From positions 1 through 35,243 of the IMG/VR virus record IMGVR_UViG_3300033571_016140: a stretch of DNA of 35,243 bases; one strand, written 5' to 3'. Source of the DNA: a virus. The position numbers and the translations under genes were made by a program. A model generated the notes under the pieces. That model saw only the letters and a list, made by a program, of their open reading frames with translations, made no database searches and was not told where the DNA came from. Below, one piece after another: positions 1,131 through 35,053 of the stretch. Position 1 is the stretch's first letter. The number at the start of each line of letters is the position of its first letter.

Positions 1131-1155
1131 AGGGGAGCTTTTAGCTCCCCTTTTT
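1131..1155 (+). terminator. Strong intrinsic terminator between convergent genes
   Basis: A perfect 9-bp stem, AGGGGAGCT (1131-1139) with AGCTCCCCT (1143-1151), has a TTT loop and is followed by TTTT, starting 6 bases after the hsp20 stop. On the minus strand the stem is followed only by TTCTTG, so it would end the opposing tape-measure transcript less efficiently. It lies just beyond that gene's stop codon. Confidence 0.85.
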
Positions 1156-3508
1156 AGTATCCTAATCTCGATGTGTGATTTAATTCACTGTAGTTTCTTT
1201 GAGATTGATTATTGGTGATATTTATGTTAGTAGAAGTCTGTCTGGCATCAGTATTTCCACTATTAGCAACAAGTGATGCAGGTGCCTGTTGTGCACCTGA
1301 TGGAACAGTCGATGCAATTACTTCAAGACTTTTCAGAATATTCTGAGATAATTCAATCATTTTCTGTGTTTGAATTGTCAATACATTATCTTGTGCAAGT
1401 GCACTAGATGCAATAGGAGATTCTGCAGTTGCCGCAGCAGCACTTTGAGCAATATCTGGTGATGGTGTCGAGGATCTACCTAACACATAATTAACTTTAG
1501 ATATAGCATCCGCCATTTCATCCAATTGAAGTGACGGATCTAGTAGACCTTTTGGAAAATTAATATCATCTCCAAGTCCCCACCAACCGCCGGACCCTTC
1601 AACTGTGCCACCGTGAGCTAGTTTATCCAAGAATGGAATTGCCTGACCAAGATCAGTAGCAAGTTGTTTAAAATCTAAATCAATTTCACTTATTTTTATT
1701 GAAGCAAATTTACTTAATGCGGCTGCAATTTTTTCTAATGCTTCGCCACCTTTCATTAAATCATCAGCAGTATCAGCAATTCCCATTATTTGCGAAAATG
1801 CACTTTCACCACCTGTAAAGAATGATACTATTGCAGCTGCGCCTTGGGCAAGTCCATTAACTAGGGTAGCACCAGCAAATTCCGTCAATCCACCGGCCAC
1901 AGCTGATAAGCCTGCACCTAGATTTATTAAATCAATGCCTTCCAATTCTTTAGCGGCTGCAACACCCTGAAATACATTAGTAAATAGTGTTTTTATTCCA
2001 GAACCAGGTTCACCACCAGATACCATTGATATTAATTTAATAATGCCGTCACCTGCTGCGAGCGCAGCCATGAAACCAGCTATACCAACACCAATAAGAG
2101 GTAAACCAACCGCAATAGATGCACCACCAATACCAGTTGCTGCTACACCCATTAATACTGCAAGTGCTGCCATTGCTTCTGCGCTCAATGATAGGATTAT
2201 ATCATTAAACATTTTAAATGCTGATACTAATGCTCCACCATCAGCGCCACCAATACCGGATATCCATTCTAGACCTACGTCAGCTAAAACCAATCCGCCT
2301 AGGAACCCTGCAATACCTGCTGCGATACCGCCCATACTTTTTGCAATACCTATCGGATTTATACTAAATTTTGAAGCAACACCCAATAAACCGCCAAGAA
2401 CAGCAATGCTTTCTAAAGAAAGTACTGATACTGATTGATTAAACATTTCGAATGCCGCCGTTAATCCACTACCATCAGCTCCTGAGATATTAGTAATCCA
2501 ATCTAAACCGATATCAGTTAAAACAAGACCACCTAAGAAACCTGCAATGCCTGCACTCATAGCAAACATATTCTTTGCTACTGTTTTTGGATCTGAATTA
2601 AATTTTGTAGCAACTGCTGCTAAACCACCTAATATTAGAAGACTTTGTGTTGAAAGAACGGCAACAGAGTCGTTAAACATTTCAAATGCAGTTGTCAATC
2701 CAGAACCATCAGCACCTGAGATATTAGTAATCCATTCTAAGCCTATATCGGTTAAAACAAGCCCACCCAAAAATCCTGCAATACCCGCAGCAACACCAGC
2801 CATGGATTTTGCTAAACTTTTTGCATCACCACCAAAAGCTTGATTTGCTACAGCTATACCTGCTATACCTGCAAATACAGTTATTGCTTTAATAGATAAA
2901 TTATCTATGGCATCACTGAACGATGCTAGTGCACCACCTAGATTTGAATAATCATTTCCAATCCAGCTTAGACCAATTTCACCAAGTGAAAGTCCTATTA
3001 AAAATCCACTGATACCTGCACCAAGTCCTGTCATACCAGAAGCTGTACCAAGACCATATAGATTTTTAAATGATGATGTTGACGCAGCAATAGCAGCGGC
3101 ACCAGCTAGTGCTGTCATAGCAGCAGGAGATAAATTCTCCATTGCAGCACTAAATGATTTAAATGCATCGGATAATCCAGAATAATCTGCACCTAACCAA
3201 TCAAGACCTACACTTCCTACAGATAATGCTGCCATAAAACCAGCAATACCAGCTCCCATGCCCGTCAAACCAGCAGCAGAACCTATGCCAGCACCAATAC
3301 CAGGTGCTGCTGCTGACATGATACTTTGACCAGGTGAATTTCCTGCGGATCCATTTGCGCCAGTTGGCGGAACATTACTATTATTGACACTAGAAAGGCG
3401 ATCTCTAGTTGCTTGTGCTGTAATCATATTAGTCAACAATGCCTTTTGATCGATCATTGTTCTATCAATAGATTTTAAAACGTCTTGCAGATCGCTTAGT
3501 GTCGCCAT
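1154..3508 (-). CDS. Hydrophobic repeat protein, probable tail tape-measure protein
   Basis: 784 residues. The N-terminal 60 residues look like a short coiled coil. A long Gly/Ala-rich hydrophobic region (about 65-540) follows, built of five clear and one degenerate tandem repeats of 75-80 residues. Each repeat has the pattern AGIAGFLxGLxLxxIGLxWI, then a polar stretch with a SGL/GAL-xxAFxxFN motif, then another hydrophobic helix. The C-terminal 180 residues are polar and Gln/Asn/Ser-rich. It follows the gp26/small chaperone pair, the place a tape measure occupies in many tailed phages. At 1.5 angstrom per helical residue the length would match a tail of roughly 118 nm. It has no clear resemblance to T4 gp29, and a different hydrophobic tail component is possible. 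The start follows the previous stop directly (TAAATG). Confidence 0.6.
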   Translation of the reverse strand: MATLSDLQDVLKSIDRTMIDQKALLTNMITAQATRDRLSSVNNSNVPPTGANGSAGNSPGQSIMSAAAPGIGAGIGSAAGLTGMGAGIAGFMAALSVGSVGLDWLGADYSGLSDAFKSFSAAMENLSPAAMTALAGAAAIAASTSSFKNLYGLGTASGMTGLGAGISGFLIGLSLGEIGLSWIGNDYSNLGGALASFSDAIDNLSIKAITVFAGIAGIAVANQAFGGDAKSLAKSMAGVAAGIAGFLGGLVLTDIGLEWITNISGADGSGLTTAFEMFNDSVAVLSTQSLLILGGLAAVATKFNSDPKTVAKNMFAMSAGIAGFLGGLVLTDIGLDWITNISGADGSGLTAAFEMFNQSVSVLSLESIAVLGGLLGVASKFSINPIGIAKSMGGIAAGIAGFLGGLVLADVGLEWISGIGGADGGALVSAFKMFNDIILSLSAEAMAALAVLMGVAATGIGGASIAVGLPLIGVGIAGFMAALAAGDGIIKLISMVSGGEPGSGIKTLFTNVFQGVAAAKELEGIDLINLGAGLSAVAGGLTEFAGATLVNGLAQGAAAIVSFFTGGESAFSQIMGIADTADDLMKGGEALEKIAAALSKFASIKISEIDLDFKQLATDLGQAIPFLDKLAHGGTVEGSGGWWGLGDDINFPKGLLDPSLQLDEMADAISKVNYVLGRSSTPSPDIAQSAAAATAESPIASSALAQDNVLTIQTQKMIELSQNILKSLEVIASTVPSGAQQAPASLVANSGNTDARQTSTNINITNNQSQRNYSELNHTSRLGY
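1960..3300 (-). repeat. Tandem 75-80-residue coding repeats in the tape-measure gene
   Basis: Five recognisable repeats and a degenerate sixth, in the same phase. The two centred near 2500 and 2730 are nearly identical as protein (shared GFLGGLVLTDIGL and NISGADGSGLT) and very similar as DNA, suggesting recent duplication. The borders given are approximate. Confidence 0.75.
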
Positions 3509-3679
3509 TTATCTAGCTCTTTCTTTTTCTCTTTGACTTTCTATAAATTCAATTAACATTTCAAAATATAAATCTCTTTCATAAGGTAATAAATTTTCAA
3601 TTTCCGCTATACTATATTTATGGTGTTGAGCCATTCCAAATACCTTTTGATAATACACAAAAAGGTTAGTGTGACTCAT
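3509..3679 (-). CDS. Small ORF after gp26, probable tail-assembly chaperone extension (GT-like)
   Basis: 56 codons that read cleanly: it begins MSHTNLFVYYQKVF, continues with a YSIAEIENLLPYERD stretch and ends in a charged helix. Its ATG lies 2 bases after the gp26 stop in the -1 frame, and its TAA abuts the tape-measure ATG. No Shine-Dalgarno sits at a useful distance from this ATG; the nearest, AAGGA at 3703-3707, is 23 bases away. Direct initiation would therefore depend on coupling, and the frameshift described at 3688-3694 could instead fuse it to gp26. Position between a G-type protein and the tape measure matches the T part of lambda GT. Function is inference; the frame and termini are seen directly. 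Confidence 0.7.
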   Translation of the reverse strand: MSHTNLFVYYQKVFGMAQHHKYSIAEIENLLPYERDLYFEMLIEFIESQREKERAR

Positions 3680-3681
3680 GA

Positions 3682-4383
3682 TTACATAAAAAAACTTTGA
3701 GTTCCTTGAATTGTAAAGATTTTCTTTTCACCTTTAGAATTCACATATGGCATTTCGTGTCTTACTTTTGGCATTGTATCAAAGAATGTTTTAATTTTCT
3801 TTGTCACATCTGCATGAAGGCTTTCAATAAAATCATCAACTTGCTTTTTTGTGAAATCTTTGAAATTATAAACTTCATCATGAGATGCAAGAATATCAAT
3901 ACATGAAATTAAAATTTCATAACTTTTTTCCGCAGTTAATTCATTTTTGTCTAATATTTCAGAAAAATCATCTATTGTTGGATATTTTAAGAATAAAGTG
4001 TACTTTTCATCTAATTCTATCTTGTTTGTGTGATTTTCATCTTTATATACTTTTACATTTTGTAAATCTAATTTTAATTTAATCTTTTCGTTTGTATCAG
4101 GATCTTCAATTTCAAACTCTACATTATTATCTACAGATTTTGATCTAATATTAATTAGCATATATTCTAAATCAAACAGTGCTAATTTATCAATATCATA
4201 ATCTTGAATACAATTATTTACAATCTGTTTGATTGCTGTTACAATTTGTTCAGAATTTTTTGACTGTTGTGCAGTCAAAAGAATTTTTTCTTCTTTGACT
4301 GTAAATGGTCTATATTGAACCTTTGTTCCGTTGGAAGGAAGTGACAATTCATAAAGTGGCAAATCAATTTTTGGTAATGGCAT
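3682..4383 (-). CDS. gp26: T4 gp26-like baseplate hub / tail-assembly chaperone protein
   Basis: 233 residues (T4 gp26 is 208). It has the N-terminal LPxYExxLPSNGxxVxYRPFTVKEEKILL pattern of the T4 gp26 family, in which a short beta-rich start leads into helices. The middle is strongly acidic and lysine-rich and the last segment ends in SFFM. In T4, gp26 is a hub-assembly factor. The start at 4383 has GGAGAGA about 5 bases upstream. The 3' end carries a T7 slippery run and an internal AAGGA, so a longer product of about 291 residues may be made by -1 frameshifting into the 56-codon ORF. Within the minus operon it lies between the gp54-like gene and the tape measure. Confidence 0.8.
   Translation of the reverse strand: MPLPKIDLPLYELSLPSNGTKVQYRPFTVKEEKILLTAQQSKNSEQIVTAIKQIVNNCIQDYDIDKLALFDLEYMLINIRSKSVDNNVEFEIEDPDTNEKIKLKLDLQNVKVYKDENHTNKIELDEKYTLFLKYPTIDDFSEILDKNELTAEKSYEILISCIDILASHDEVYNFKDFTKKQVDDFIESLHADVTKKIKTFFDTMPKVRHEMPYVNSKGEKKIFTIQGTQSFFM
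3688..3707 (-). other. Candidate -1 programmed ribosomal frameshift signal
   Basis: On the minus strand the gp26 frame reads AGT TTT TTT ATG TAA. The seven T's (plus 3694-3688) form X-XXY-YYZ as T-TTT-TTT, which allows full re-pairing after a -1 slip. AAGGA (plus 3707-3703) lies 8 bases upstream, similar to the stimulatory internal Shine-Dalgarno of dnaX. After slipping, translation reads Tyr-Val-Ile and enters the 56-codon ORF at its Met, without a stop. Confidence 0.6.
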
Positions 4384-29466: not shown

Positions 29467-29933
29467 CAATAAAAAAACTTATAACTAGTCAAGCGCCTGA
29501 TGCAAAACCAGTAGGTGTTACTAAATCTATTTCAAATGCTGGTTGGACTATTTTAATAGAAGCGCCGCAATACGAAATTCCTGAAGAAACATTTGGGGGA
29601 GGTACTATAGTAGTTCCTGGTGTTGCTGAAATAATTAGCCCTCTTCTTATATCGAACATTTCGGCTGGAAGTATCACAGTAGATATAAGAATATATCGTG
29701 AACTTGATAGTGATGGCGAACCTGATGGTACTAATTATCTAATTGCTGCTGAACTACCTATCCCTGCATATGATATACTGCCTATACCATTGAATGGACA
29801 ATTTATCGCAACCGGCGATAGGCTAGAGATAACATCTGACGCAGCTAGCGGAATTAACGTAACAATTTCTTACACTGTTGGACAAGCTGAACAAGACGAT
29901 GTAGACGGGGTAGTAATCGAGGAAATCGTATAA
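29463..29933 (+). CDS. Small beta-sandwich-like tail protein
   Basis: 156 residues, rich in alternating hydrophobic beta strands (LLISNISAGSITVDIRIYREL, quoted in part: SNISAGSITVDIRIY), with an acidic tail (EQDDVDGVVIEEIV). The layout, with a strand pair ending in GQFIATGDRLEITSDA, resembles small fibre-head or collar-like beta-sandwich proteins found among marine phage tail genes. It overlaps both neighbours (ATGA before, TAATGG after), so it is coupled to the two long fibre genes and may connect or decorate them. The assignment is by appearance and context only. Confidence 0.65.
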   Translation: MTIKKLITSQAPDAKPVGVTKSISNAGWTILIEAPQYEIPEETFGGGTIVVPGVAEIISPLLISNISAGSITVDIRIYRELDSDGEPDGTNYLIAAELPIPAYDILPIPLNGQFIATGDRLEITSDAASGINVTISYTVGQAEQDDVDGVVIEEIV

Positions 29934-32900
29934 TGGTTTTAAGAACAGTACGTGGTTCTACGTCCGTTATTGGGCAAGGAGCTAAATTAGAAGTTCCTAT
30001 TACTTTAGATCCTAGCTATTTTGAAGGCGCCATAGTTTATGGTGTTGATAGTAATGTTTATTATTCCGATGGTGCAACTTGGATAATACTCAATGAAGGT
30101 GTTCAAGGTCTCCAAGGCATACAGGGTATGCAGGGTATTCAGGGCAGCCAAGGTATCCAAGGTATAACCGGTCAGGGTATTCAAGGTATTCAGGGGCAAC
30201 AAGGTCTACAAGGACAACAAGGTCTACAAGGTTTAACTGGACAAGGTATCCAAGGTACTCAAGGTATCCAGGGTGAACAAGGCTTGCAGGGTGTCCAAGG
30301 CGAGCAGGGTCTACAAGGTATCCAAGGCGAGCAGGGTCTACAAGGTGTTCAGGGTGAACAAGGCCTACAAGGTATTCAGGGTGTCCAGGGCCAACAAGGT
30401 GTCCAAGGGCCCCAAGGTATCCAAGGTGAGCAGGGTCTACAAGGTGTTCAGGGTATTCAAGGACAACAAGGTGTCCAAGGTCAGCAGGGTATTCAGGGAC
30501 CACAAGGTTTACAAGGTCAGCAAGGTTTACAAGGCCAGCAGGGCATTCAAGGCCAGCAGGGCATTCAAGGTCAACAAGGTTTACAGGGTATTACTGGACA
30601 ACAGGGTATTCAGGGCGCCCAAGGATTCCAAGGTATTCAAGGAACTCAAGGTCAGCAAGGCATTCAAGGCCAGCAAGGACTACAAGGTGTCCAAGGAAGC
30701 TATGGTCCATCTCTTACTATTATAGGAACTGTGGTAGATGTATCTAACTTTGTTCCCCCTGATGATGAACAAGATGTTTTAAATAATGCGTTTCCTACAG
30801 CAGTTTCAGGAAACGGTGTAATTGACCAAGCATCAGGTAATTTGTGGGTTTATGATGGATTAACATGGGAAAATGTTGGTCAAATTAAAGGGCCTCAAGG
30901 TATCCAAGGTACTCAAGGTCTAACTGGACAAGGTATTCAAGGTATCCAAGGACCACAAGGCACACAGGGTATCCAAGGTGAGCAAGGTCTACAAGGTACA
31001 CAGGGTCCTCAGGGTATTCAGGGCCAACAAGGTGTTCAAGGTATTCAAGGGCCGCAAGGAACACAAGGTATCCAAGGTGAACAAGGTGTTCAGGGTGTTC
31101 AGGGTGAGCAAGGTATACAGGGAACACAAGGACTTCAAGGTGTTCAAGGTATCCAAGGCCAGCAAGGTGTCCAAGGTTCTCAGGGTATTCAAGGCATTAC
31201 AGGACAACAGGGTATTCAGGGATCTCAAGGTATCCAGGGTATTCAAGGAATGCAAGGCATTCAAGGTAGACAAGGTTTCCAAGGTCTCCAAGGAATGCAG
31301 GGAATGCAAGGTATCCAGGGAAGACAAGGTCTAACTGGACAAGGTATTCAAGGTATTACTGGTCAACAAGGTATCCAAGGTTCTCAAGGTGTCCAAGGAC
31401 TTACAGGATCTCAAGGTCTAACTGGTCAACAAGGTATCCAAGGTTCTCAAGGTAATCAAGGTATTACTGGTGCTCAGGGTCTCACAGGTGTTCAGGGTCT
31501 TACAGGTGTTCAAGGTATCAGCGGTGCTGGAAATCAAGGTCTACAAGGCCTACAAGGAATTCAAGGTCGCCAAGGTGTTCAAGGTGTTCAGGGTCTAACT
31601 GGACAAGGTATCCAAGGTAATATAGGTCCTCAAGGCCTAAGAGGAGCACAAGGTGTTCAAGGTCTACAGGGTATTCAGGGTCAACAAGGTGTTCAAGGTC
31701 TAACAGGTCAAGGTATTCAAGGACAACAAGGTGTTCAAGGTACTTATGGACCTGGTTTAACTATTATTGGAAGTATTGAAGTAGCAAGTGATACATTATT
31801 AAAATCTGCATTTCCAGGTGCTGCCGCAGGTAGCGCAGTAGTAGAAACACTCACTGGTGATCTCTGGGTATATGACGGCACCAATTGGAATAGTGTAGGA
31901 CAATTCGTTGGATCACAAGGTATTCAGGGACGCCAAGGGCTCCAAGGACTTACAGGATCTCAAGGTATTTTAGGTCAGCAAGGTATCCAAGGTCCACAAG
32001 GTATCATAGGTCCACAAGGTATCATAGGACAACAGGGTATCCAAGGCCGCCAAGGTATTCAGGGCACTCAAGGTATCCAGGGTATTCAAGGTACTAATGG
32101 TGCATTTGCAGGCCAAGGTATCCAGGGACCACAAGGTATTTCAGGTGCCTTTGTAGGTCAAGGTATTCAAGGTGTTCAGGGCACTCAAGGTGTCCAGGGT
32201 ATTCAAGGTCGCCAAGGTGTCCAAGGTCTGACTGGACAGGGTATCCAGGGCATGCAAGGTGTCCAAGGATCACAGGGAACTCAAGGTATTTCAGGTGCCT
32301 TTGCAGGCCAAGGTATCCAGGGTCTACAAGGTACTGACGGTCTATTTGCAGGCCAAGGTATACAGGGTATCCAGGGTAGACAAGGTCTAACTGGTCAAGG
32401 TATTCAAGGTCTGCAAGGTATTCAAGGTCAACAAGGAACTCAGGGTATTTCAGGTGCCTTTGCAGGCCAGGGTATTCAAGGTGTTCAAGGTACTAATGGC
32501 ACATTTGCAGGACAGGGTATTCAAGGTATCCAGGGTATTTCAGGTGCATTCGCAGGTCAAGGTATTCAGGGTGTTCAAGGTACTAACGGTCTATTTGCAG
32601 GACAGGGTATTCAGGGTCTACAAGGTACTCAAGGCTTACAAGGTATCACAGGCCAACAGGGTATTCAGGGTGTACAGGGGCTCCAAGGCAGACAAGGTCT
32701 AACTGGACAAGGTATTCAGGGTATCCAGGGACCGCAGGGTATTCAAGGTGTTCAAGGGCTTCAGGGTCTAACTGGTCAAGGTATCCAAGGTATTCAAGGC
32801 ATTACAGGTCAACAAGGTGTTCAAGGTCTTACAGGACAGCAGGGTATTCAAGGTATTCAAGGTGTTCAAGGGATACAGGGTCGCCAAGGACTTCAAGGCT

Positions 32901-33334
32901 TAACTGGTCCATCTACTCTAGTAAATGCCACTAATGATACAACATCAACAACACTATATCCAGTTATGGTCGCTGCAGCAGGGTCTAATCAAACTCCTAG
33001 TGTAACTACTACAAAGCTGTATTTTAATGCAGCAACTGGAACATTGAATGCAACAGAATATAATTCACTTTCTGATATAACATATAAAGAAGATATTAAG
33101 ATAATAGATAATGCTTCTGAAATTCTTGACAGTGTTAAAACATATCAATTTAAATGGAAAGAATCAGGTGTTAAGAGTTATGGTGTTATTGCACAAGAAC
33201 TTGAAGAATTATTACCAGAGTTAATAAATAATACTAATGGTAATAAATATGTGAATTATACACCCCTAATTGCAATCTTGCTTGAAGGCTTTAAAGATCT
33301 GTCTGCTCGTATAAAGAGTTTAGAAAAAGAATAA
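29933..33334 (+). CDS. Collagen-like Gly-X-Gln tail fibre with C-terminal S74 chaperone
   Basis: 1133 residues. A short N-terminal domain (1-55, ending in YYSDGATWIILNEG) is followed by three collagen-like blocks (bases 30098-30697, 30890-31741 and 31910-32908; roughly 270 triplets) in which Gly is every third residue and the third position is nearly always Gln. Breaks of the type TGQG and GAFAGQG recur. Two related globular inserts of about 56-64 residues (YGPxLTIIGxxxx to LWVYDGxxWxxVGQ) separate the blocks. The C-terminus (about 1040-1133) is an S74 intramolecular chaperone with Ser1047-Lys1052 (SDITYKEDI) and GVIAQELEELLPEL. It is very probably a long trimeric triple-helical fibre. Proline is almost absent, so stability would have to come from other sources such as Gln-mediated contacts. 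Confidence 0.9.
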   Translation: MVLRTVRGSTSVIGQGAKLEVPITLDPSYFEGAIVYGVDSNVYYSDGATWIILNEGVQGLQGIQGMQGIQGSQGIQGITGQGIQGIQGQQGLQGQQGLQGLTGQGIQGTQGIQGEQGLQGVQGEQGLQGIQGEQGLQGVQGEQGLQGIQGVQGQQGVQGPQGIQGEQGLQGVQGIQGQQGVQGQQGIQGPQGLQGQQGLQGQQGIQGQQGIQGQQGLQGITGQQGIQGAQGFQGIQGTQGQQGIQGQQGLQGVQGSYGPSLTIIGTVVDVSNFVPPDDEQDVLNNAFPTAVSGNGVIDQASGNLWVYDGLTWENVGQIKGPQGIQGTQGLTGQGIQGIQGPQGTQGIQGEQGLQGTQGPQGIQGQQGVQGIQGPQGTQGIQGEQGVQGVQGEQGIQGTQGLQGVQGIQGQQGVQGSQGIQGITGQQGIQGSQGIQGIQGMQGIQGRQGFQGLQGMQGMQGIQGRQGLTGQGIQGITGQQGIQGSQGVQGLTGSQGLTGQQGIQGSQGNQGITGAQGLTGVQGLTGVQGISGAGNQGLQGLQGIQGRQGVQGVQGLTGQGIQGNIGPQGLRGAQGVQGLQGIQGQQGVQGLTGQGIQGQQGVQGTYGPGLTIIGSIEVASDTLLKSAFPGAAAGSAVVETLTGDLWVYDGTNWNSVGQFVGSQGIQGRQGLQGLTGSQGILGQQGIQGPQGIIGPQGIIGQQGIQGRQGIQGTQGIQGIQGTNGAFAGQGIQGPQGISGAFVGQGIQGVQGTQGVQGIQGRQGVQGLTGQGIQGMQGVQGSQGTQGISGAFAGQGIQGLQGTDGLFAGQGIQGIQGRQGLTGQGIQGLQGIQGQQGTQGISGAFAGQGIQGVQGTNGTFAGQGIQGIQGISGAFAGQGIQGVQGTNGLFAGQGIQGLQGTQGLQGITGQQGIQGVQGLQGRQGLTGQGIQGIQGPQGIQGVQGLQGLTGQGIQGIQGITGQQGVQGLTGQQGIQGIQGVQGIQGRQGLQGLTGPSTLVNATNDTTSTTLYPVMVAAAGSNQTPSVTTTKLYFNAATGTLNATEYNSLSDITYKEDIKIIDNASEILDSVKTYQFKWKESGVKSYGVIAQELEELLPELINNTNGNKYVNYTPLIAILLEGFKDLSARIKSLEKE
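30098..32908 (+). repeat. 9-base collagen-like DNA repeat array
   Basis: GGT-NNN-CAA/CAG units repeat in phase with the reading frame over three blocks. The array has many near-identical stretches, such as units containing GGTATTCAAGGT, and is prone to slippage and recombination. Confidence 0.9.
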
Positions 33335-33443: not shown

Positions 33444-33683
33444 ATGGCAATCAAGATTCAAGGCACTACAATTATCAATGATGTGACTGCGTATATAGAT
33501 CTCGCAGGAACAACTGCCGTTAAAGTGCCAACAGGTACTTTAGGAGAAAGACCAACAGGTGTTGCTGGTCAATTGAGATATAATACTACCGATACAACAT
33601 TTGAAGGTCATAATGGTACCGCATGGGGTTCAATCGGCGGAACTGACACATACGCAAGAACTATTGCATACTTAGGGTTATAA
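33444..33683 (+). CDS. Small tail-fibre module protein
   Basis: 79 residues. The centre has the common phage-fibre repeat pattern GTLGERPTGVAGQLRYNTT-DTTFEGHNGTAWGSI, often found as single or tandem units in fibre and structural proteins of marine phages. The start and end are short beta strands. AAAGGAG lies 7 bases before the ATG and a structured leader precedes it, so it is probably well expressed as a separate protein. TAATG overlap couples it to the RCC1 gene. A fibre tip, joint or decoration is likely; the exact role is unknown. Confidence 0.75.
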   Translation: MAIKIQGTTIINDVTAYIDLAGTTAVKVPTGTLGERPTGVAGQLRYNTTDTTFEGHNGTAWGSIGGTDTYARTIAYLGL

Positions 33684-35053
33684 TGTTAGGCGTAAATACT
33701 CTCATACAAAAATTGAATACTGTAATAGCTGGTGGTTCATTAACTGAATTGCAAGTGGTACAACTCAGTAAAGCTATAGACTCACTTGAAAATAAGGGTG
33801 TTAGTTCTGTAAAGACAGTCGCAGATTTACCGAACGTTGTTTTAAATCAAGGCAGATTCTTTTGGATTGAGAGTGAAAATAGATATGTTTTAAGTGACGG
33901 TGTTACTTGGGACATTAACAATATTATAAGAGAACCTTTCATCAATTTATTTGTTTGGGGATCAGCAACCGATGGTAGATTGGGTAATGGTACAATAATA
34001 GATAAAAGTTCGCCGGTCAAAGCGGCCGGAAGTTTTACTGACTGGATACAAGTAAGTGCTGGATATACCCACAGTTTTGGTATTCGTGCTGATGGTACCT
34101 TATATTCCTGGGGTGCTAATAACCAAGGTCGACTTGGTCAAAATACCGCAGCTACCGTAAGTACATCTTCACCAGTTTTGGTTGCGGGCGGATTTACAAA
34201 TTGGATTCAAGCAAGTGCGGGATTTTCCCATAGTCTTGGTATTCGTGCTAACGGCGAATTATATTCATGGGGTAACAACGGGCAGGGTGAACTTGGCCAA
34301 AATATTGCAACTGCTGTAAGTAGATCTTCTCCAGTTTTGGTCGCAGGTGGTTTTGTCGACTGGAAACAGATTAGTGCAGGCGCGAATTTAAGTCTAGGTG
34401 TACGTGCTAATGGTACCTTATATTCTTGGGGTTCTAATTTAGCCGGTCAACTTGGCCAAAATATTGCAACTACGGTCAGTAGATCTTCTCCAGTTTTGGT
34501 CGCAGGTGGTTTTACAAATTGGATTCAGGCCAGTGCTGGTGGCGTTCACTCATTAGGTCTACGGGCTACTGGCCAATTATATGCTTGGGGTGCTAATGGT
34601 TCCGGTAGAGTAGGCGATAATACCGGAATACCAAAAAGCTCTCCAGTATTGGTAGCTGGTGGATTTACAGACTGGATACAAGCTAGTGCAGGATATACCC
34701 ACAATCTCGGTATTCGTGCTAATGGTACATTATATGCTTGGGGAGGTAATGCCGTAGGTCAACTTGGTCAAAATACCGCGGCGGATGGCGGGCGATCTTC
34801 TCCAGTTTTAGTAGTCGGAGGTTTTACAGACTGGATTAGTGCATCTGTATCCAGTACTGACACAATTATTACTCCACATAGTTTAGGTGTCCGTTCTAAT
34901 GGTACATTATATGCTTGGGGGGATAATGGAAGTGGTAGACTTGGTGTTAATGATAGTAGTAATAGAAGTTCTCCTGTATTAGTATTAGGTGGTTTTACCG
35001 ATTGGGTTGATGCATCTGCGGGAGTACAACATAGTCTAGGTATTAGGGGTTAA
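33683..35053 (+). CDS. Seven-bladed RCC1 beta-propeller tail protein
   Basis: 456 residues. Residues 1-90 form a separate N-terminal module (helical start with LSKAIDSL, then VKTVADLP, then YVLSDGVTWD). From about 92 to the end there are seven RCC1-type repeats of 49-59 residues, each with LYxWGxNxxGxLG, then SSPVLVAGGFxDW, then SAGxxHSLGIRxxG. Seven is the number needed to close an RCC1 propeller. The C-terminus ends at the last repeat, so the propeller is probably the distal, exposed domain. RCC1 propellers bind proteins or other ligands; here a receptor-binding role is an inference from its place among fibre genes. Confidence 0.88.
   Translation: MLGVNTLIQKLNTVIAGGSLTELQVVQLSKAIDSLENKGVSSVKTVADLPNVVLNQGRFFWIESENRYVLSDGVTWDINNIIREPFINLFVWGSATDGRLGNGTIIDKSSPVKAAGSFTDWIQVSAGYTHSFGIRADGTLYSWGANNQGRLGQNTAATVSTSSPVLVAGGFTNWIQASAGFSHSLGIRANGELYSWGNNGQGELGQNIATAVSRSSPVLVAGGFVDWKQISAGANLSLGVRANGTLYSWGSNLAGQLGQNIATTVSRSSPVLVAGGFTNWIQASAGGVHSLGLRATGQLYAWGANGSGRVGDNTGIPKSSPVLVAGGFTDWIQASAGYTHNLGIRANGTLYAWGGNAVGQLGQNTAADGGRSSPVLVVGGFTDWISASVSSTDTIITPHSLGVRSNGTLYAWGDNGSGRLGVNDSSNRSSPVLVLGGFTDWVDASAGVQHSLGIRG
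33960..35050 (+). repeat. RCC1 blade repeats at DNA level
   Basis: Repeats have a period near 159 bases. The pair starting at 34292 and 34451 is nearly identical for about 63 bases, containing the same AGTAGATCTTCTCCAG stretch, suggesting recent blade duplication or conversion. Confidence 0.8.

Follow-up and report, generated by a model that had tools for sequence, protein, structure and literature searches.

In phage lambda, a -1 slip at the site G_GGA_AAG, near the end of the chaperone gene and just upstream of the tape measure, turns the tail assembly chaperone G into the fusion GT, which gains a C-terminal domain. The signal of E. coli dnaX consists of an internal Shine-Dalgarno (SD) sequence, a homopolymeric A-run heptamer and a downstream stem-loop, and the shifted product is the shorter one. 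For T4-like phages, the abstract of Vladimirov, Gautam and Davidson (2022) reportedly describes frameshifting as apparently conserved in several groups and, for T4, points to genes 26 and 51. Tail assembly chaperone (TAC) genes of T4-like phages have already been reported (Vladimirov, Gautam, Davidson, Virology 2022, 566:9-15, via PMC10885494 and PMC12846349) and, as far as the citing articles relate that study, it is the source for poly-T slip signals in the TAC-N genes of T4-like phages (PMC12846349) and for some T4-like phages encoding a short and a fused long TAC in separate genes instead of frameshifting (PMC10885494). The frameshift reading given below is not new, since it was published for T4-like phages in 2022, and the additions of the present analysis are possibly the stem with its covariation, the relatives in which gp51 has no start and the excess of stop-start overlaps. 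T4 was treated as an exception to the conserved tail-chaperone frameshift in a 2016 review (PMC5009743); its gp26 and gp51 have been listed as hub assembly chaperones, with gp51 absent from the particle, and evidence that the T4 hub contains gp26 has also been cited (PMC3004832).

The DNA analysed here (the window, 35,243 nt, the whole of IMG/VR record IMGVR_UViG_3300033571_016140) carries gp26, the putative short chaperone TAC-N (233 aa), on the minus strand at 3682..4383. It matches PF12322 (E 5.2e-57), phrog_150 (E 3.7e-62) and, by hhalign, T4 gp26 (E 3e-20), and is at most about 43% identical to phage records among the matches listed; the window phage belongs to a lineage without a close isolate, which it adds to the T4-like phages for which a short and a long TAC have been described, as far as the articles citing the 2022 study relate it. 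The gene ends AGT TTT TTT ATG TAA, that is, T_TTT_TTT_ATG_TAA, and the minus strand across the junction reads CAAGGAACTCAAAG TTTTTTT ATG TAA TC ATG AGT. The X_XXY_YYZ heptamer (T_TTT_TTT, 3688..3694, minus strand) is in 0-frame phase within the overlap of the gp26 and gp51 frames, and the 0-frame TAA (3682..3684) lies three codons past the start of the first slip codon. An SD-like AAGGA at 3703..3707 precedes the heptamer by exactly 8 nt, so both this element and the slippery T run are placed as the initial annotation had described them. The -1 frame (3509..3688, minus strand), which would encode the C-terminal domain TAC-C (gp51), reads F-F-Y-V-I-M-S-H after a slip, continues as YVIMSHTNLFVYYQ...KERAR and stops at 3509-3511, and its residues and length are conserved across the junction. 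Counted from an ATG at 3677-3679, it forms a 56-aa ORF (3509..3679), whose -1 relation to gp26 follows from the coordinates (4383-3679 = 704 = 3x234+2).

This ORF had been described as hidden and unannotated, open through Tyr-Val-Ile and ending directly at the tape-measure ATG. The frame and its ending stand, the TAA abutting the ATG of a 784-aa ORF at 3508; the ORF is not hidden, since it has a match in phrog_634 (gp51 'baseplate hub assembly catalyst'; E 3.8e-19), and gp51 or that product name is annotated in S-PM2, P-SSM2, Caulobacter phage Cr30 and phiM12. The 784-aa ORF directly downstream of the gp26 and gp51 pair (1154..3508, minus strand) had no match in Pfam or PHROG and is a tape-measure candidate by position, length and internal repeats; ORFs near the equivalent place carry a tape-measure annotation in Cr30, HTVC008M and phiM12. 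An extra small ORF of about 80-140 codons lies between gp51 and the large downstream ORF in four relatives (L090, L091, L003, L089), and the window phage is without it.

We consider it very probable (roughly 0.92) that gp26 and the 56-codon ORF make up a single tail-assembly-chaperone locus with a -1 frameshift fusion, TAC-NC. Most ribosomes would stop at the gp26 TAA and yield TAC-N, and a minority on T_TTT_TTT would slip back one base, aided by the upstream SD-like AAGGA and the downstream stem, and read on into gp51 to give TAC-NC. On the model of lambda G/GT, the tape measure would be coated by TAC-N, and tail tube subunits would be recruited by the C-terminal part. The locus resembles lambda G/GT in the position of the putative -1 slip, near the chaperone gene end and just upstream of the candidate tape measure, and in the C-terminal domain gained by the fusion, although the sites differ and the likeness is one of arrangement. 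With dnaX it shares the upstream internal SD, the homopolymeric heptamer and the downstream structure, whereas the run is of T rather than A and the dnaX shifted product is the shorter one. The evidence is drawn from sequence, namely the site, the frames, their conservation, the missing starts, the covarying stem and the in-frame equivalent in T4, and from it we infer the occurrence of frameshifting, its efficiency and the chaperone function.

The AlphaFold2 model of gp26 is of good quality (pLDDT 85). In Foldseek searches against the PDB, 3FGX had the highest and 2OB9 (HK97 gp13) the next highest probability among the matches listed (0.82 and 0.35), with E values of about 1 that are not significant alone; both proteins are TACs (PMC9603447). 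For gp51 the model has low confidence (pLDDT 71), and PDB sequence searches with the gp26 and gp51 profiles gave no match. T4 gp51 (249 aa) matches phrog_150 over residues 3-248 (E 2.6e-84) and phrog_634 over residues 147-246, and hhalign aligns the gp26 profile with its residues 4-187 and that of gp51 with 208-243; T4 gp26 matches the gp26 part only. A short form and a longer form with a C-terminal domain are thus found both in the gp26/gp51 arrangement here and in T4 gp26 versus gp51. Because T4 gp51 combines a gp26-like part and a gp51-like tail in one protein, the long form is encoded in T4 as a single gene, equivalent to the fusion expected from frameshifting in the window phage, and by the same token gp26 is the probable short chaperone TAC-N and gp26-gp51 the probable long one, TAC-NC. 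T4 thus holds both protein families, gp26 as TAC-N and gp51 as N+C, but as separate divergent genes rather than overlapping frames, an orientation also seen in two related records, Ent31 and AB1I1T. Since the two T4 genes are on opposite strands and T4 gp51 is already a complete N+C protein, a frameshift at this junction is impossible in T4. The earlier suggestion that a T4-like lineage uses a G/GT-type strategy, with gp26 as the G-type chaperone, is therefore supported by sequence for the lineage of the window and fails for T4 itself.

To follow the junction in relatives, IMG/VR and annotated phages were scanned, giving 179 loci with a complete junction, 132 of them distinct over 270 nt and falling into 36 deep clusters at <75% identity. 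All counts below ignore shared descent and come from a sample that over-represents P-SSM2-like phages and was in part selected for the presence of the T run; few loci came from the gp26 scans that used HTVC008M or nt-1 as seed. In all 179 loci the gp51 frame is -1 relative to gp26. It runs without a stop through the slip site and for a further 53-65 codons beyond the end of gp26; for the +1 frame the median is 5 codons. T_TTT_TT(T/C) is found in 129 of the 132 distinct regions (TTTTTTC in 78, TTTTTTT in 51), the others being TTTTTTG in a Rhizobium phage and, in only two regions without a T6 run, ACTTTTC and GGTTTTC. The stop follows the start of the first slip codon by 2-4 codons in 132/132 regions, and T_TTT_TT(T/C) lies 2-3 codons ahead of the stop. 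The heptamer extends over Kyanoviridae and phages of Pelagibacter, Methylophilales, Vibrio, Pseudomonas, Cronobacter, Caulobacter and Sinorhizobium, and the pattern is kept in deep relatives among Pelagibacter, Methylophilales, Vibrio, Pseudomonas, Cronobacter, Sinorhizobium and Rhizobium phages. Against the frameshift reading, two deep relatives, Serratia phage 2050H1 (GGTTTTC) and Vibrio phage K447 (ACTTTTC), have only weaker sites. These distant gp26 relatives (L093, Ackermannviridae, and L088, respectively) keep the -1 frame ORF, which neither record labels as gp51.

In the T6-run regions the first Phe codon is TTT and its preceding base T in 130/130, for which codon use predicts 79% and 83%, and Phe-Phe is spelled T TTT TTY in 130/130 at the junction versus 11/140 elsewhere in gp26. 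The junction signal is not a chance pattern, because the T run and the relative frame hold in relatives. Outside the T4-type group it is general in the T4-superfamily relatives surveyed, Pelagibacter phages and cyanophages among them.

Flanking elements point the same way. An SD-like motif lies 8-10 nt upstream of the heptamer in 126 of 130 regions, although the encoded Glu/Gln-Gly pair is itself conserved; together with the T run (129/132) and the -1 frame (179/179), the junction on which the initial annotation had built its case is thus conserved on alignment. Downstream, of 28 segments tested along the locus, the 60 nt immediately 3' of the heptamer give the best fold (mean -10.1 kcal/mol). 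In the group to which the window belongs, a stem starts 8 nt 3' of the heptamer, and pairing holds in 90.4% of cells compared with 25-40% when the arms are slid; covariation gives 29 double-change cells versus 12.1 when shuffled (reached in 0/500 shufflings), with kinship not corrected for. At one pair, a Ser/Cys change on the 5' side is coupled, on the 3' side, with changes at the third position of an Ala codon. The stem is 9 bp in relatives and 7 bp in the window (5' arm 3672..3678, 3' arm 3627..3633, minus strand), which itself forms 7 of the 9 pairs with a single-sequence fold z-score of only -1.7. RNAalifold on the gap-free group alignment kept just 5 pairs, explicit pair counting being the more informative method for this stem. 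Cyanophage hairpins at the same place differ (14 bp in S-PM2, about 11 bp in P-SSM2). The upstream SD and the downstream structure are the probable stimulatory elements of a -1 programmed ribosomal frameshift.

How gp51 begins bears most directly on whether it is a separate gene. In 21/132 regions, spread over 10/36 deep clusters, the six codons that follow the slip contain no ATG, GTG or TTG, as in TAT ATA ATC ACG AGT CAC (L005) and TAC GTA AGC CTT AGC CAT (L070), yet the N-terminal motif [YR][LIV]xLSHxxLxxYY is conserved there as elsewhere, at a nearly constant distance to FF; only frameshifting explains gp51 in those 21 regions. No SD was found 5-12 nt ahead of candidate gp51 starts (0/26), whereas 30/34 gp26 starts have one, which bears out the earlier claim that the small ORF has no ribosome-binding site of its own. 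An ATG does adjoin the gp26 stop in the window (TAATCATG), as TAATG or TGATG do in relatives, and an ATG or GTG overlaps this stop in 20/36 clusters, about four times the expectation from a background taken from the same ORF (16% of ANN and 1.6% of GNN codons), which hints at independent gp51 initiation as well. It is unlikely that many lineages (about half) have two outputs, the frameshifted gp26-gp51 fusion and a free gp51 (TAC-C) that would tune tail assembly, the latter arising by stop-start re-initiation at the ATG or GTG overlapping or following the gp26 stop.

Far less probable is termination-reinitiation at the stop-adjoining ATG as the sole route to gp51, with no fusion made. The excess of overlapping starts and the annotation of gp51 as a gene in S-PM2 and P-SSM2 would suit it, but 10/36 clusters have no usable start and conserve the same residues, SD sequences are missing from the gp51 starts, T4 has a fused protein, and re-initiation needs no T run, yet the T run is conserved. 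A start at an internal codon, deep within the domain, which is how annotators resolved the missing gp51 start in HTVC008M and Melnitz-2, is highly improbable, as the upstream stretch L..YY...F that it would leave out is conserved across phages in the -1 frame and is therefore translated. Slippage of RNA polymerase on the T run, giving a mixed mRNA pool, is just as improbable: a T7 run could allow some of it, but T6C is commoner than T7 (78 versus 51 regions), the X-XXY-YYZ phase is kept, and a stem and an SD-like element flank the site as in ribosomal frameshifting. Re-initiation alone, an internal start and transcriptional slippage were set aside on this evidence in favour of the -1 ribosomal frameshift.

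On the frameshift reading, the 'gp51, baseplate hub assembly catalyst' of relatives' records is most likely the C-terminal domain of the frameshift product and no free-standing gene. Several records omit gp51 (LPCS28, 2050H1) or truncate it to an internal start (HTVC008M, Melnitz-2), so the annotation should change.

Elsewhere in the window, the plus strand encodes an alternative oxidase at 51-524 (PF01786, E 3e-69), here phage-encoded; its ORF, with a GTG start, covers profile positions 63-216 only, and the actual start is possibly further upstream, beyond the edge of the window. A gene for an Hsp20 small heat-shock protein (PF00011, 682-1125, plus strand) adjoins it. The far end of the window holds a probable tail fibre, a very long protein of collagen-like G-x-Q-G repeats (29933-33334, plus strand), and, at the end of the tail-fibre region, a protein with seven RCC1 repeats (PF00415, E 1.1e-61; 33683-35053, plus strand).
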